Shown: one piece after another, positions 23,975-33,862 of the stretch
Position numbering within the stretch: the first letter of the stretch is position 1
Layout: every line of letters starts with the position of its first letter
From: Bacteroidales bacterium
GTDB taxonomy: Bacteria > Bacteroidota > Bacteroidia > Bacteroidales > GWA2-32-17
DNA: 64,000 bases
Assembly: GCA_026416095.1 (NCBI GenBank)
Contig: JAOAFV010000061.1
Span: forward strand, 1 to 64,000
Direction of reading: 5' to 3'
Program-made: the position numbers and the translations under genes
Notes under the pieces: generated by a model
Databases searched by the model: none
The model's input: the letters and a program-made list of their open reading frames with translations, nothing else
What the model was told of the DNA's origin: nothing

Positions 23975-26509
23975 TTATTTTATATTTATTTTGTTTGAAT
24001 TAATTCGTTTGATTAAAGATTTAATTGTATCATACAATTTTTTGTAATCTGTTCCTAACATAAAACCATTCTCAAATTCTTCAAAACCACAATCTTTTAA
24101 AATAGAAGATATAAATTTAACATCTTCGTCTCCTAAACGTGATAGCTTAAAATCAATAACAAAATTTTTATTCTTAAAAATTAAATACAAATATTTTTCA
24201 TTATTATTTTCTACTTTATTATTATATAAAATTTTTATTCCTGGATAATCCTCTATACTTCTTACCTTGTTATAAATAAATTGATCGTGCTCATCATATT
24301 CGTTATTAATAAATTTTTCAGAAGTAGACAAGTATTTTATGAAAAAGTAGGAGGTGTACAATTCGGCATGATATTGATTACTTTGAGAAGCACAATAAAG
24401 ACGTATATTATCTTTGCTTTCAAATCTGATAAAACCATATTTACAAAAACTAATAAGCTCTGCATTGTTTATAAAATAATCTCTCCAATCTTCAAGTTTA
24501 TCTTTTCTTTTATTTATAATATTTTCTAAAGCTTTTTTAACATTTTCTACTTTGCTTATATCTAAAGAATTTTCTTTGCTGAAACTTATTATATCGTCAA
24601 ATACTTCTTTAACAAATAAACGCTTATTTTTCATTTGAATATTATCTTCCACCCTTAAAAGTCTTTTCCACGAATGATCCCTTTTTATGTGATACCAAAC
24701 AACATTTGATGACAACAAATTTTTTCTAAAAGAAGAAGCTTCTGTAAGATAATCGCCTTTAACTAAAACTGCTCTTTCAAATATATAGTTTTCATTGTTT
24801 TTTCTATTTTCATAACTTTCGTCGAAAATGATTTTAGCAATAGTAGCATAATTGCGAAATTTTTCATAATAATCATCGTCTAATTCTTTTCCCCAATTTA
24901 AATTTCTATTTTTACTATAGTACTCCCATATACCTGAAAATTCAAGAATAAATCCAATTTGACCATTAAAGTAACGATGTTGTTCAGTTTCTTCGACTAG
25001 TTTTTTCCAACGTTCATTCCTAGATATTAAATGTGCCTTAATTCTTTCTTCGGTAATTTGCCAAGAAGAAAATTCAGTTATTTTATTATTTTCATTCTTA
25101 AGGTATTCCAATATATCGTTATTTAGTAACTTGTCTAATATATCTTTTAACATTTTTATAGCCCTTGCATATTCAAAAACAGATTCTATTCTTGAGTTAT
25201 CTCCATGAGATAAATTATGAACAACTCGTATCCATTGACTTAATTTATTTTTATCAAAATTTAACTTAGTTTTCATTAAAAAACTTAAATAGGCATAAAA
25301 CATTAACCTTTTATGATAGCTCTTAAAATTATTTTTAATAACTTCATCGATAAAAGTATTTTTTTCGTCAAAATAAAAAGCATAGTCATTATCAAGTTGT
25401 TCTATGTTAGATTTAGTAATAATATCTAATGCATCAATTAAATAATTAATTCTATCTTTTATTATTTCATCTTTGTCATTTATTTCTGCAGGAAGAATTT
25501 CCACCTCTTGATATTTATATAATGATATATCTTGAAAGCTTTGTAAAAGTAAGTTTAAAATATTATAATTCACATAAATATCATAGAATTCTTCATTTTC
25601 AATATAGTGGTGCGTTAAAACAACTCTAAAAAAATTCATTAATTCATCGTCAAATAAGTTATTTTGTGTATTTCTAAATTTCCAAAAAAAATCAGCCCAC
25701 TCTGTATCTATTTTATATGAAAAATATTTAGAAACCTCTATTTCTTTGCCATCAAGCTGCTTTTTACATTTTATTTTACTTAAATAACCTTCAAATTGAG
25801 CTTTAAAATTTTCAAAATTTGTTAATAATCTTCCTCTTGAGTTCATTCTAATATACAAATCATCAGACAAATGAAAATCCATAAGATTTAAAAACTTAAA
25901 TGTTATAATAGGATTTTCGTCTTGCAATAAAAGTTCAAAAAAGTGCTTACTATCTTTAAACTTTTTATGAATACTATCGAGCATTACTAAAACACCCTGA
26001 ATAGTAGAATCATAATTCCATGACAAATGATACCACGAACAATTTTTTATTATGCTTGATAACGAATTATTTTCTAATTCTTTTAAATCAAATTGAAATT
26101 TTACAATTTCATTAAAAAAATCTGTTGAACTAATCCGTGTTTCGTAAATAAATCTTGATTTATTATTATCTTGAATTGCTTTTTTAAACGCTTCCTTAAG
26201 TTTGTTATTATCAGATATGTTATATAAGTACCAATGTAATAAAAATAAAGTTGTTAACCTTTGTTGGCCATCTAGTGGTATAAATTCACTATCATTATTT
26301 CTTAAATAACCATAAATGAAATCCAAATCTCTATAAGGTATTTCTTCATCCAAATACACATACAAGGCATTTAAAAAATTTTCTCTAATTTCTTTCTCTT
26401 TTTCTCTTCCTTGGGCATAATCTCGCTGAATTATTGGTATTAAAATTTTATATCTTCTAATAAGTTGATAAAAAGTTAATGTTTCACCAGATTTAATATT
26501 ATGTTCCAT
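23975..26509 (-). CDS. DUF262 protein, large partner (844 aa)
   Basis: 844 residues. The N-terminus is a DUF262 (ParB/Srx-like NTPase) domain: IPIIQRDYAQGR at about 28-39 and PLDGQQRLTTLFLLHWYLY with Asp80, followed by the family's YIRMNSRGRLLTNFENFKAQ segment near 220. The remaining C-terminal about 450 residues are mixed helix, rich in K, E, N and Y, and I see no HNH/DUF1524 motif or other known domain. DUF262 is the GmrS-type domain of modification-dependent restriction systems (GmrSD, BrxU, SspE). The gene begins 13 bases after its 591-residue DUF262 partner, so the two are surely co-expressed. The function as an anti-phage module is an inference. Confidence 0.85.
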   Translation of the reverse strand: MEHNIKSGETLTFYQLIRRYKILIPIIQRDYAQGREKEKEIRENFLNALYVYLDEEIPYRDLDFIYGYLRNNDSEFIPLDGQQRLTTLFLLHWYLYNISDNNKLKEAFKKAIQDNNKSRFIYETRISSTDFFNEIVKFQFDLKELENNSLSSIIKNCSWYHLSWNYDSTIQGVLVMLDSIHKKFKDSKHFFELLLQDENPIITFKFLNLMDFHLSDDLYIRMNSRGRLLTNFENFKAQFEGYLSKIKCKKQLDGKEIEVSKYFSYKIDTEWADFFWKFRNTQNNLFDDELMNFFRVVLTHHYIENEEFYDIYVNYNILNLLLQSFQDISLYKYQEVEILPAEINDKDEIIKDRINYLIDALDIITKSNIEQLDNDYAFYFDEKNTFIDEVIKNNFKSYHKRLMFYAYLSFLMKTKLNFDKNKLSQWIRVVHNLSHGDNSRIESVFEYARAIKMLKDILDKLLNNDILEYLKNENNKITEFSSWQITEERIKAHLISRNERWKKLVEETEQHRYFNGQIGFILEFSGIWEYYSKNRNLNWGKELDDDYYEKFRNYATIAKIIFDESYENRKNNENYIFERAVLVKGDYLTEASSFRKNLLSSNVVWYHIKRDHSWKRLLRVEDNIQMKNKRLFVKEVFDDIISFSKENSLDISKVENVKKALENIINKRKDKLEDWRDYFINNAELISFCKYGFIRFESKDNIRLYCASQSNQYHAELYTSYFFIKYLSTSEKFINNEYDEHDQFIYNKVRSIEDYPGIKILYNNKVENNNEKYLYLIFKNKNFVIDFKLSRLGDEDVKFISSILKDCGFEEFENGFMLGTDYKKLYDTIKSLIKRINSNKINIK

Positions 26510-26522
26510 AAAACTAAAAATT

Positions 26523-28298
26523 TTAAGATAAAAATTCTTTTAATGTTTCTTTAATTGCATTTAAATAATCTTCTGCATCTTCGTTTGTCCAATAAATGTA
26601 ATTCTTTGGTTTTCTCGAATAGTACTTTAAAAATAAGTTTTTTGTAGCAATAGGTATAAACTTACCTTTTTTATCGTTTTCTATAATTTTCATTCTTTTT
26701 ATTGCAAAAAAAGAATTTCCATAACTTCTATTAGTTTCTGCGTCCAATAAAGCAAGATTTGAAATATTATCAACAAATGAATCATCTTCTTCATGAAAAT
26801 ATTTTCTGGCCATATTAAATAAAGATTCAAATTCGATATTGTTTATTTTTTCATCATTTTGCATTTGCTTAATTTTTTTCAGAATCTCTTTTTTTGATTC
26901 TTCATTTTCTTTTTCTATATCTTCATCGGTTACCATATCAGAATCTATTAAAAAGAGTGCTAAATCTTTTAAAAACTCTCTTTGTTTTTTTTCGCTTGTT
27001 ATAAACTTATCTGATCTTGAACGTACGTGCTCAATTTCAAAATTAGCATTTTTGTAATGACTAAAAGAAAATGATAATGCAAAATTTCCTGAATTTATTA
27101 TTGTTTGAATATTAAACAGTAACAAAATTTTTTTTACTTTCGAAGTTCCATAAGTTAATTCTACTAATTTCTCTTCTGTGCAATTTATTAATTCTTTTAT
27201 TTTTTTCTTTAAACAATCTCTAAATTCATTCTTTGTTTTGTTTTTGTATTCTTCTATTATTTCATTTATTGAATACTCACACGTAATTAAATATCCTATG
27301 TAATGATAAAACTCAAAATCATTGAACCATTCTTCCAAAATTAAATAATGACTCTTTATATACCACCATATGTCGTCGATATTTTCCTTTTCATTTACTA
27401 ACTTACTATAAAAAAATAAAAAAGTATAATAATGGTCACTAGTTTTATTCTTCTTTGAAATTAAATCTAAAATATATTCTATTCGAACATCATATTTTTT
27501 ATCTGTGCCATTATAAATAAAATACCAAAAATTATCATTTTGCAACGATTTTTCTATAGAATACCATTCTGTTGCAATTTGTATTTGTTTAATATTAACA
27601 ACATTTTCTGGAAAATTTTGACTTTTTAAAAGAAGTGCCTTCACGAGTTCAGCGTTTGTTAATGGAATTTTACCAATGTTTAAACGAGTGAAAATATCAA
27701 CAACATTTTTACTTGAATCATTAATTTCATACCAAATAACCACAACAGGGTGAGAAGTGGGTTCGTTTAACTCACCCAAAAATACTTGTAAAAATTGTTC
27801 CTTTTTATTTCTGTTTAAATTAGAAAACCATTTTTCAATAACTTTAAATGCTTCATTAATAAAGTAAAAATCAATATTATCGTTTTGTTTATTTTGATAC
27901 TCAATTTCTGTAATATTTTGCAAAAATTCTTCACTTTTAGGTCGAGTAACATATTTTATTGTAAATTTTTCTTTAAAGTATACATCTTGAAGAGTACTTT
28001 TTAAATGAAATTTTTCAATAAAAGATAAAATTAAATGTATAGTTGTTAATCTTTGCTGACCATCTATAACTTCATAAGCTCTATTTGTTTTCTTAACCAC
28101 AATAGGTTGCAAACAATAAAACTCACCTTGCTTTTTATTTTCTTTTCTTGTAAAATCCCAGATATCATTTAATAATTGCTCTACTTCACTTTTTGTCCAT
28201 CTAAAACCTCTTTGATACGAAGGTATAACAAAATTATAACCTAGCAAGTCAAATATAGATTTTAGCTCAAGGTTTGTTATACTGGCACAATTATTCAT
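26523..28298 (-). CDS. DUF262 + DUF1524 (HNH-like) protein, 591 aa
   Basis: 591 residues. The N-terminal DUF262 domain has IPSYQRGFRWTKSEVEQLL at about 25-43 and VIDGQQRLTTIHLIL with Asp79, then VDIFTRLNIGKIPLTNAELV, the family's second conserved block. The C-terminal part has DUF1524/HNH-like signs: His424 in NFEIEHVRSRSDKF, later ISNLALLDAETNRSYGN and FAIKRMKII, which fits the H-N-N pattern of GmrD-type nucleases. The proline of the usual EHxxP motif is replaced. It is the first gene of a two-gene cassette with the 844-residue DUF262 protein downstream. A plausible role is DNA restriction of modified or phage DNA; substrate unknown. Confidence 0.86.
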   Translation of the reverse strand: MNNCASITNLELKSIFDLLGYNFVIPSYQRGFRWTKSEVEQLLNDIWDFTRKENKKQGEFYCLQPIVVKKTNRAYEVIDGQQRLTTIHLILSFIEKFHLKSTLQDVYFKEKFTIKYVTRPKSEEFLQNITEIEYQNKQNDNIDFYFINEAFKVIEKWFSNLNRNKKEQFLQVFLGELNEPTSHPVVVIWYEINDSSKNVVDIFTRLNIGKIPLTNAELVKALLLKSQNFPENVVNIKQIQIATEWYSIEKSLQNDNFWYFIYNGTDKKYDVRIEYILDLISKKNKTSDHYYTFLFFYSKLVNEKENIDDIWWYIKSHYLILEEWFNDFEFYHYIGYLITCEYSINEIIEEYKNKTKNEFRDCLKKKIKELINCTEEKLVELTYGTSKVKKILLLFNIQTIINSGNFALSFSFSHYKNANFEIEHVRSRSDKFITSEKKQREFLKDLALFLIDSDMVTDEDIEKENEESKKEILKKIKQMQNDEKINNIEFESLFNMARKYFHEEDDSFVDNISNLALLDAETNRSYGNSFFAIKRMKIIENDKKGKFIPIATKNLFLKYYSRKPKNYIYWTNEDAEDYLNAIKETLKEFLS

Positions 28299-28654: not shown

Positions 28655-29581
28655 ATGAAAGACGTACTTCTAATAAGTTTTAAATATTCCATTACTACAG
28701 GATGGAAGTTGTTACGAATTTATTTTCCTTTGGCAATTTTATCGACTATTTTAAAACAAATTGGATTTTTCGAATGGCTTAGCCCATACATAGCACCAGT
28801 TATGGAAAATTTTGGGCTACCTGGTAAAGCATCGATTACTTTAATATCGGCTTACATTGGTAATATGTATGCTGCTATTGCAACTATACCTGCATTAGAT
28901 CTAACCCCACGCGAAGTTACTATATTAGGTATAATGACTGGCTTGTGCCACAACTTGATATTAGAAACTGGAATACTTATAAATTTAAAATTTGCCACCA
29001 TTAGAATAGCTATATTCAGGCTTTTTTTATCTATTACAGCTGGCTTATTGGCAAATGCAATTTTACCTGCATATGTTAATGGACAGGTTTTAAATCCATT
29101 CTTGCAATCGTCCGACAAAGTAAATTGGGTTAATACTATAAGTGGAATTTTAACAACGGCCTTACAAATTATTACAATAATATTTACTCTACAATTAATA
29201 TACGAACTATTAAAGAAAACTCCTTTTAAAGAAAAATTAAAACAAATATTATCATTTATTGGTAAGATTTTTGGAATATCAAAAGGGGGTATAGTACCTT
29301 TACTAGTTGGTTTATTTTTTGGTATTGTATATGGTTCTGGAATAATGTTACAGTTTCGAAAAAATAATTCAATTACCGATAAAGATTCTGCACTAATTGC
29401 TGTTTTTTTAATTTTGGCTCATGCAATTATAGAAGATACAATGTTGTTTGTAATTGTTGGAGGAAATTTTTGGATAATTTTTATTTTGCGAGTATTTGTA
29501 GCTTATGCTTTTATAAGAACATTTTCGCTTGGTAATTTATATAGAAAATTATATCTAGTAGGTTCAGTAAGGGTAAAGTAA
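28655..29581 (+). CDS. Nucleoside-recognition (Gate) domain membrane protein
   Basis: 308 residues from the ATG at 28655; the TTG at 28637 lies inside the promoter element and is rejected. The protein has about eight hydrophobic segments and two Gate-type halves, seen in GKASITLISAYIGNMYAAIA and GIVPLLVGLFFGIVYGSGIM. Gate-domain proteins include nucleoside transporters and SpmA/SpmB-like membrane proteins; the transported substrate is not known. The 3' end overlaps the LuxE-like gene on the other strand by 18 bases. Confidence 0.78.
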   Translation: MKDVLLISFKYSITTGWKLLRIYFPLAILSTILKQIGFFEWLSPYIAPVMENFGLPGKASITLISAYIGNMYAAIATIPALDLTPREVTILGIMTGLCHNLILETGILINLKFATIRIAIFRLFLSITAGLLANAILPAYVNGQVLNPFLQSSDKVNWVNTISGILTTALQIITIIFTLQLIYELLKKTPFKEKLKQILSFIGKIFGISKGGIVPLLVGLFFGIVYGSGIMLQFRKNNSITDKDSALIAVFLILAHAIIEDTMLFVIVGGNFWIIFILRVFVAYAFIRTFSLGNLYRKLYLVGSVRVK

Positions 29582-30544
29582 ACTACAGCCTCTTTCAACA
29601 GAATAATCTAACCTGCCAACCACTTCGAAAGTATTATCATGATGTTTAATCCCCACATCATCTGTTGCAATAAAAGAACAAGAATAATAATTAGCAAGGT
29701 CAATAATATTAATAGCACCATATTTTTCGAGCAAACTTAAGTCGGTTGGTTCATTCACATCGCGTATTAGTACTCTCATCCACTTAGGAGCCCTAAAAAT
29801 TCCATTTCCTTTTGAATATGCTTGCGATAAAAGTTCGGTCATTCCATATTCGCTATGTATAGTTTCAACCTTAAATGAATTGCATAGTATTTTATGCAAT
29901 TCATTTCTTGTAATTTCTTTTCTTCGACCTTTCATTCCTCCTGTTTCCATTACTATTAACTTATCATATTCTGGCAACGAAAACTTTTCGGCAAAATTGA
30001 GCAAAGCAAAACTTACTCCAAATAAAATTATTTTTTTATCATTCTCAATACAATAAATTAATTTCTTATATAACGACTCATAATCGTTTAAGTAAAAACC
30101 ACTTTCCGAATGAATAGAATTTTTTATAAAATACTCAATCATATATACCAGCGAAGAATTTGGTCTTTCAAGATACGATGGTAACAATGCAAGCCATACA
30201 TAGTCTTTATAATTACCATAAAAATAATTAAAAGAAGTAGTAAAGCTTCTAATATAAAGATCTGACGAGTAGACATAATGTTTCGAAACATTTTTACCCG
30301 TAGTTGCGCTGCTTTCAAAAAGTAACTCATAACTATCGGTACATAATATTTTGTGATTTTTAAAAAAAGAAATTGGTAAAAAAGGAATATCTTCTAATTT
30401 TACAACATTATCTGGATTTTTTTTTAGCACATCACAGAACTTACGATATATAGAATTATTGGTATATTGAAATTTAAAAACCTCTAAAGTATAACTTATA
30501 AACTCAACATCAGTTAAGGTGCTAAAAATTTTGAATATTTCCAT
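29564..30544 (-). CDS. LuxE-like acyl-protein synthetase / acyltransferase
   Basis: 326 residues, similar to LuxE-type acyl-protein synthetases of the adenylate-forming (ANL) superfamily. Visible are the ATP-loop-like ESSATTGKNVSKHYV segment, the HSEYGMTELLSQAYS block (equivalent to the YGxTE motif of ANL enzymes) and a TDDVGIKHH region followed by EVVGRLDY near the end. It is shorter than full acyl-CoA synthetases, lacking the large C-terminal lid domain, as LuxE does. No luxCD partners are present, so the acyl substrate and acceptor are unknown. It follows gap by 23 bases on the same strand. Confidence 0.75.
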   Translation of the reverse strand: MEIFKIFSTLTDVEFISYTLEVFKFQYTNNSIYRKFCDVLKKNPDNVVKLEDIPFLPISFFKNHKILCTDSYELLFESSATTGKNVSKHYVYSSDLYIRSFTTSFNYFYGNYKDYVWLALLPSYLERPNSSLVYMIEYFIKNSIHSESGFYLNDYESLYKKLIYCIENDKKIILFGVSFALLNFAEKFSLPEYDKLIVMETGGMKGRRKEITRNELHKILCNSFKVETIHSEYGMTELLSQAYSKGNGIFRAPKWMRVLIRDVNEPTDLSLLEKYGAINIIDLANYYSCSFIATDDVGIKHHDNTFEVVGRLDYSVERGCSLLYPY

Positions 30545-32944: not shown

Positions 32945-33862
32945 TTATAATAATCGCGATCCTTCGTATTTCTTCTTTTCAAGAATATTATAACCCAAAG
33001 TTATTTCATGGCTCCCTTTGCAATACTTTTTTATTTCATAAAATGAATAATCGAAAGAATAACCAAAAAATAAACTTCCTACTTTAGCACCCAAAACAAT
33101 AACTAAATCGTTACTTGTTCTGTAAGAAATTCCAGCCCAGTAATCTGATTTATAATAACATTTTAAATTAAAATCGAACTGATTAGGGCTATTAAAAGTT
33201 ATTTTTCCGAATAATGATGGTTCAAAAGCGAATTTTTCTCCTGCATCAATTTTATAACCTGCTAAAAAGAAAACATGTCTTACAATATAATTTTTATCGA
33301 CATTTTGGGCTTTAAAATCAATCTTATATTGAAGAATATTTGCTATCGATAAACTTAAAAAATGCTTTTTTCCGTAAAAATATAAACCAAAATCTGATTC
33401 AGGACACCATTGGGAAATAAGATTATAAGAAAGTGCCGGATCGTTTTTTTCAATAGGAATGAATGATGTTTGGTCGTATTTGTATTGGTATAATTTTATT
33501 CCTAATCCAACAGACATCTTAGATTCGATGTTATGTAGTGGCATATGATAAGCAAAATTAAATTGACAACCAGTACGAGATAAAGGGCCATATTTGTCGT
33601 TGAAAAAAAATCCCCCATACCCTATTTTTAGCACATCCGAATAAATATGTGCACTTAAAGCCTGAGTTGATGGAGCATCTTTAAAACCAAGCCATTGTTG
33701 TCGAACTGTTAAAACAACTGGTAAATATTCACTTGATCCCGCTATAGCTGGATTTAAAAGAAAAGAATTTAAAAAATATTGAGAATACAAAGGTAATTGT
33801 TGAGATATTAAAATCTTTAAAGATAAATAAAGAAAAATTAATAAAAACAAAGATCTCTTCAT
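32945..33862 (-). CDS. PorP/SprF-family protein paired with the type-B adhesin
   Basis: 305 residues: signal peptide ending near LKILISQ, then the hallmark QLPLYSQYFLNSFLLNPAIAG, followed by strand-rich barrel sequence and SHEITLGYNI near the C-terminus. SprF/PorP proteins encoded next to a type-B sorting-domain protein are needed to secrete or attach that specific cargo in Flavobacterium (SprF for SprB). It starts 12 bases after the 1344-residue adhesin gene. Confidence 0.9.
   Translation of the reverse strand: MKRSLFLLIFLYLSLKILISQQLPLYSQYFLNSFLLNPAIAGSSEYLPVVLTVRQQWLGFKDAPSTQALSAHIYSDVLKIGYGGFFFNDKYGPLSRTGCQFNFAYHMPLHNIESKMSVGLGIKLYQYKYDQTSFIPIEKNDPALSYNLISQWCPESDFGLYFYGKKHFLSLSIANILQYKIDFKAQNVDKNYIVRHVFFLAGYKIDAGEKFAFEPSLFGKITFNSPNQFDFNLKCYYKSDYWAGISYRTSNDLVIVLGAKVGSLFFGYSFDYSFYEIKKYCKGSHEITLGYNILEKKKYEGSRLL

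Follow-up and report, generated by a model that had tools for sequence, protein, structure and literature searches.

The window analysed here, a 64,000-nucleotide stretch of a Bacteroidales bacterium (contig JAOAFV010000061.1 of assembly GCA_026416095.1, positions 1 to 64,000), carries two adjacent genes, here called A and B, whose products both begin with a DUF262 domain. We consider it likely that they encode a two-subunit, modification-dependent (type IV) restriction system resembling GrwAB of Vibrio cholerae, and the cassette is real and very probably functional in restriction. It is a real find, but not a new kind of system, as the architecture was already published in 2025; a preliminary description of the sequence had found no name for the design and had thought it a possible new restriction type, a claim that falls because GrwAB is a characterized system of the same architecture.

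The A and B genes and their likeness to GrwAB

The pair and its domains are arranged as follows.

26523-28298, minus strand: gene A (GrwA-like), 591 amino acids, ATG start, intact open reading frame (ORF)
27626-28260, minus strand: DUF262 (GmrSD_N) domain of A, from Pfam
26510-26522, minus strand: intergenic gap of 13 nt, with A upstream of B
23975-26509, minus strand: gene B (GrwB-like), 844 amino acids, ATG start, intact ORF
25793-26467, minus strand: DUF262 (GmrSD_N) domain of B, from Pfam

The layout given in the preliminary description, a 591-residue DUF262 and HNH protein lying 13 bases from an 844-residue DUF262 protein, thus stands, and the short gap is consistent with a single transcript. 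In A the N-terminal DUF262 domain is followed by a helical linker and a C-terminal DUF1524/HNH nuclease, while in B it is followed by an SspE-like helical linker extending to about residue 484 and then by some 360 further residues. A and B both match the Pfam GmrSD_N (DUF262) profile, at 9e-32 and 6e-19 respectively. The GmrSD_C profile (DUF1524/HNH, PF07510) matches A weakly (E 0.0075), yet it is matched by 41 of 51 A homologues, and the HNH assignment is therefore secure. Scanning B and 54 of its homologues against Pfam gave nothing beyond DUF262 except matches to single members. No DUF262 protein other than A and B was found in the source genome of 2.46 Mb.

GrwAB was described in 2025 from the LAT-1 region of VSP-II in the WASA lineage of V. 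cholerae; GrwA (DUF262 plus DUF1524) is encoded first and GrwB (DUF262 plus C-terminal domains of unknown kind) second, and both are needed for protection, which is abolished by each of the substitutions R81A, H431A, N521A and N530A in GrwA and R86A in GrwB (PMC12137116). Both NTPase motifs and the nuclease are required there. The window pair has in common with GrwAB the two-gene operon with the nuclease-bearing DUF262 gene first, the long C-terminal part on the second protein, DGQQR in both proteins and the nuclease triad in the first only. Residues R81, H431, N521 and N530 of GrwA correspond to R83, H424, N514 and N523 of A, and R86 of GrwB to R84 of B; the H-N-N spacings, 90 and 9 residues, are identical in GrwA and A. 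Gene order, partner size and a likeness to Tgv-type proteins mainly in DUF262 make the window pair GrwAB-like and set it apart from TgvAB, the other two-DUF262 system of V. cholerae.

Pairing of A and B

A and B are a genetic unit and are obligately paired. We assembled 108 loci by searching with B (10 from plasmids, six from Bacteroidota genomes, 80 from contigs of named genomes, 11 from IMG/VR viral contigs, and the window), and the set includes a few duplicates. In 104 of the 108 loci B is immediately preceded, on the same strand, by an A homologue, so that the members of the pair are not usually separate, a point that the preliminary description had singled out for checking. The four exceptions are three contig ends (L032, L079 and L101) and one locus, L095:2238-5663 from a Victivallis metagenome-assembled genome, in which A and B are joined head-to-tail in one ORF of about 1142 amino acids; this may be a true fusion or the result of a sequencing indel where the two genes normally overlap slightly. 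Spacing between the genes in the relatives has a median of -4 nt, most pairs overlapping by a few bases.

The same association is found when the search begins with A. Among 296 Bacteroidota genomes all seven matches with E <1e-30, leaving aside the window genome and including one divergent pair, adjoin B. On plasmids, 15 records match A along 80% or more of its length, and precisely these 15 also have a clear B. In a mirror-tree comparison the A and B distances correlate with an r of 0.83, to which shared species history contributes, and the maximum among 1000 permutations was 0.11, a sign of co-evolution.

Two kinds of unusual loci were seen among the relatives. A divergent A-B pair (L165:2614-6485), about 27% and 23% identical to window A and B respectively, lies beside a large DEAD-helicase-like gene, and shows that the family reaches well beyond close relatives. 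Three loci appear to be decaying: in L019:2932-8218 an IS3 transposase lies between A and a B that is split, while L015:4204-8181 has a split A and L079:601-2804 a split B.

Conserved motifs and the sensing pocket

In A the motifs are Q29-R30, DGQQR (D79-R83), FxxxN (F203-N207) and the nuclease residues E423-H424, N514 and N523; B has QR at 28-29, DGQQR at 80-84 and YxxxN (Y219-N223), without an HNH motif. DGQQR had been placed correctly at Asp79 and Asp80 by the preliminary description, which was also right that HNH-like residues occur in the first protein only. All 96 A homologues retain E423, H424, N514, N523 and FxxxN, and QR and DGQQR are present in 94 of 94, two rows being gapped. The B homologues likewise retain both QR and DGQQR apart from one Gly, although this conservation is partly by construction, since the scan of named-genome contigs used the patterns IP[IL]IQRDY and DGQQRLTT; the 16 B proteins of alignment A1, which were found without sequence patterns, have the same motif invariance. 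The DGQQR motif, whose inactivation would have spoken against the pair, is thus kept in essentially all A and B proteins. Conservation declines along B to a minimum at residues 721-844, as expected, we infer, under diversifying pressure.

The two DUF262 domains differ at one position of the pocket. DndI senses phosphorothioate through Y25, which is equivalent to Y30 of SspE and lies in a P-x-Y-Q context (PMC11662687). The corresponding residue of A is Tyr28 (P-x-Y-Q-R), which is kept in 50 of 51 A proteins, whereas B has Ile in the window and Ile, Val or Leu in 55 of 55 B proteins, including the A1 set and two divergent pairs that had been reached in other ways. The tyrosine is retained in TgvA as well as in TgvB. 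The available parts of the published accounts hold no mention that we could find of tyrosine loss in B, and the change to Ile, Val or Leu is possibly unreported. The difference suggests that the two DUF262 domains are not equivalent. A more specific proposal, in which B has lost the sensing tyrosine and kept its nucleoside triphosphatase (NTPase), making an asymmetric sensor-switch pair in which the fast-evolving C-terminal part of B provides target recognition, is doubtful at present; were it true, the design would be a heteromeric one of type IV whose specificity module can be exchanged.

Predicted structures

The AlphaFold2 model of A (mean predicted local distance difference test, pLDDT, 89.9) matches DndI over its full length (Foldseek 8e-9; VIA Z 14.7 over 449 residues) and also SspE (Z 16), with a lower score against BrxU (Z 7.9); the large root-mean-square deviations in these structural matches are likely to come from differing domain orientation. 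In the B model (pLDDT 88.5) residues 6-484 match SspE (Z 14.4 over 398 residues) and also DndI, as a scaffold without the nuclease. Because this alignment takes in both the DUF262 domain and the helical linker of SspE and DndI, the unmatched region of B is about 360 residues (485-844), and the large C-terminal region of unknown fold put forward in the preliminary description holds as regards the lack of a confident match but not as regards its length, given there as about 450. For residues 485-844 of the full-length model a Foldseek search of the PDB gave no meaningful match beyond SspE and DndI; the rows returned by VIA-align for residues 714-844 (Csm1, Spa15 and SH2, all with Z <5) are weak and amount to background, and BFVD had no match to the C-terminal part of B below 0.001. 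An 818-residue DUF262 protein whose structure was recently solved (PDB 20yv/20yw) matches the A profile in sequence (1e-15).

Distribution and genomic context

The pair family spans Bacteroidota, Bacillota, Pseudomonadota, Actinomycetota, Spirochaetota, Campylobacterota and others, and relatives occur in defence loci as well as on plasmids and IMG/VR viral contigs. In about 12 loci hsdR follows within 200 nt of B (L024, L025, L026, L027, L030, L040, L072, L073, L085, L086, L100 and L118), often with hsdM/hsdS on the opposite side of the pair, and embedding in a type I restriction-modification locus is a feature shared with TgvAB of V. cholerae. The location near defence genes in other genomes that the preliminary description had proposed to look for is thus borne out in these loci, and with the relatives on plasmids and viral contigs it makes the pair look like the defence system for which it had been taken. 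A WYL regulator lies within about 6 kb in 23 loci, and in eight a short gene for a DnaQ-like 3'-5' exonuclease lies no more than about 50 nt upstream of A (L012:3646-4125, L036:4707-5180, L045, L066, L070, L080, L081 and L099), a possible third component in one sub-branch.

B is absent from three congeners of the window genome, so the pair is accessory, and its distribution is patchy; when these congeners were examined for an empty site, the genes that flank the window pair were found on different contigs. The window neighbours encode a two-component kinase, an aminotransferase, an rRNA methylase, a DUF4468 protein, a nucleoside-gate protein, a LuxE-like protein and glyceraldehyde-3-phosphate dehydrogenase, and no Rfam families or tRNAs were found in the window. 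With PADLOC the neighbours tested gave no match except for the class-V aminotransferase, which weakly matched DndA/SspA, an identity that was rejected since Pfam places the protein in the general Aminotran_5 family. A LuxE-like acyl-protein synthetase gene, from Pfam, and an ORF that looks, by eye, like an outer-membrane protein of PorP/SprF type lie at 29564-30544 and 32945-33862 of the window, respectively.

Proposed mechanism and alternatives

Most likely A and B would form one complex, each contributing a ParB-like DUF262 NTPase, that would recognize modified, non-self phage DNA. Tyr28 of A would sense the modified DNA, as in DndI and SspE, and hydrolysis of nucleoside triphosphate in both DUF262 domains would couple recognition to activation of the HNH nuclease of A, which would cut or nick the phage DNA. 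B, with Ile in the pocket, would probably be the licensing partner, or the one that binds DNA or recognizes the target, by way of its long C-terminal region, which diverges fast. Dependence on modification has a precedent in GrwAB, whose activity hinges on phage DNA modification, with phages escaping by its loss and the escapers altered in the 7-deazaguanine-inserting enzyme DpdA (PMC12137116).

Several points weigh against so close an alignment with GrwAB. Membership is based on architecture, motifs and spacing, and not on direct alignment to the V. cholerae sequences. The match in HNH spacing lends mild support and may be partly chance, since the A family varies: the spacing of 9 is near-universal, and the other, 90 in A, coincides with the upper quartile of values that vary (quartiles 77-90). 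Window B has YxxxN where FxxxN is named for GrwB, and among 97 homologues 92 have Y and four have F at this position. The immediate neighbours look like ordinary chromosomal genes and not like a defence island. Finally, modification sensing by the window pair, the type of modification and the division of labour between A and B are inferred.

The alternatives differ mainly in what B would do and in what A would read. B could hold A in check, as a regulator or immunity-like partner, the two forming a guarded nuclease or abortive-infection module, which would account for a B that has no nuclease and is obligately paired; DndI, to which A is closest among solved structures, is toxic when its self-mark is missing (PMC11662687). 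We think this improbable, as an A-B fusion ORF exists, the NTPase residue R86 of GrwB is needed for protection, and typical abortive-infection kinetics were not seen in infected cultures with GrwAB (PMC12137116). Another possibility is that the pair is of the phosphorothioate-sensing SspE/DndI kind, A reading a Dnd/Ssp mark on the host DNA and cutting phage DNA that is free of it. DndI and SspE are indeed the closest solved structures to A, with Tyr28 at the site of DndI Y25 and SspE Y30, but TgvA and TgvB have the tyrosine too, so it is not specific for phosphorothioate, and SspE and DndI function without a second DUF262 subunit. Moreover, the source genome contains no DndC/SspD-type protein, its three matches to the 3'-phosphoadenosine 5'-phosphosulfate (PAPS) reductase family being CysD, CysH and GMP synthase (GuaA), and phosphorothioate dependence was set aside as the favoured interpretation for that reason; the genome is 96.9% complete and a dnd/ssp cluster could have been missed. 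We regard this explanation as very improbable.

It is highly improbable, lastly, that the pair is a TgvAB-type system, with a DUF262-only subunit first and a DUF262 plus DUF1524 subunit second. TgvAB likewise has two DUF262 subunits, with HNH in one only, and sometimes lies inside a type I restriction-modification locus, but the order is reversed, the non-nuclease partner is of about 450-530 residues in Tgv-type pairs compared with 844 for B, the likeness is mostly confined to DUF262, and the pocket tyrosine, present in TgvA, is missing from B.

Returning to the GrwAB-like interpretation, its significance is that an architecture tested so far from V. cholerae only belongs to a cross-phylum, strictly paired family, which the 2023 PADLOC models do not recognize as a pair: with these models A matches single-protein systems only, the best being HEC-06, and window B matches nothing. 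The obligate pairing, the fusion ORF and the clade-wide change of Tyr to Ile in B are testable handles on why two DUF262 subunits are needed.

Comparison with known systems

A literature search for paired DUF262 systems found none beyond GrwAB and TgvAB. The window pair differs from GrwAB in its phylum and in its chromosomal site, which has no obvious defence island. Neither the plasmids nor the phages of Vibrio yielded a GrwB-like locus, and the Vibrio plasmid locus inspected (L179) is Tgv-type; in 369 genomes of the class to which an Acinetobacter locus belongs, a profile search gave just two further genomes with B, and a search there for 16S signatures gave no Vibrio.

TgvAB, described in 2024 from VPI-2 of V. 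cholerae, belongs to the GmrSD family and requires both of its DUF262 proteins, one of which has DUF1524 (PMC11411939). Its gene order is opposite to that of the window, and in five Tgv-type loci (L179-L183) a gene for a DUF262 protein of 446-533 amino acids precedes one for a DUF262 plus HNH protein of 625-710 amino acids, and it is chiefly in DUF262 that these resemble A and B of the window.

DndI (PDB 9JFL), the best full-length structural match to A, shares its DUF262-linker-HNH layout and pocket tyrosine (PMC11662687), but is one DUF262 protein acting alongside Dnd phosphorothioate-modification genes, which are absent from the source genome. SspE, which matches A strongly and gives the best structural fit to residues 1-484 of B, is a single, phosphorothioate-dependent protein, and B lacks both its nuclease and its tyrosine. 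GmrSD, Eco94GmrSD, BrxU and HEC-06 combine DUF262 with DUF1524 as A does and act singly, or split into S and D proteins, and have no additional complete DUF262 subunit; window A is unlike the single-protein members of this group (BrxU and HEC-06) in that, on genomic rather than biochemical evidence, its strong matches always lie beside B.

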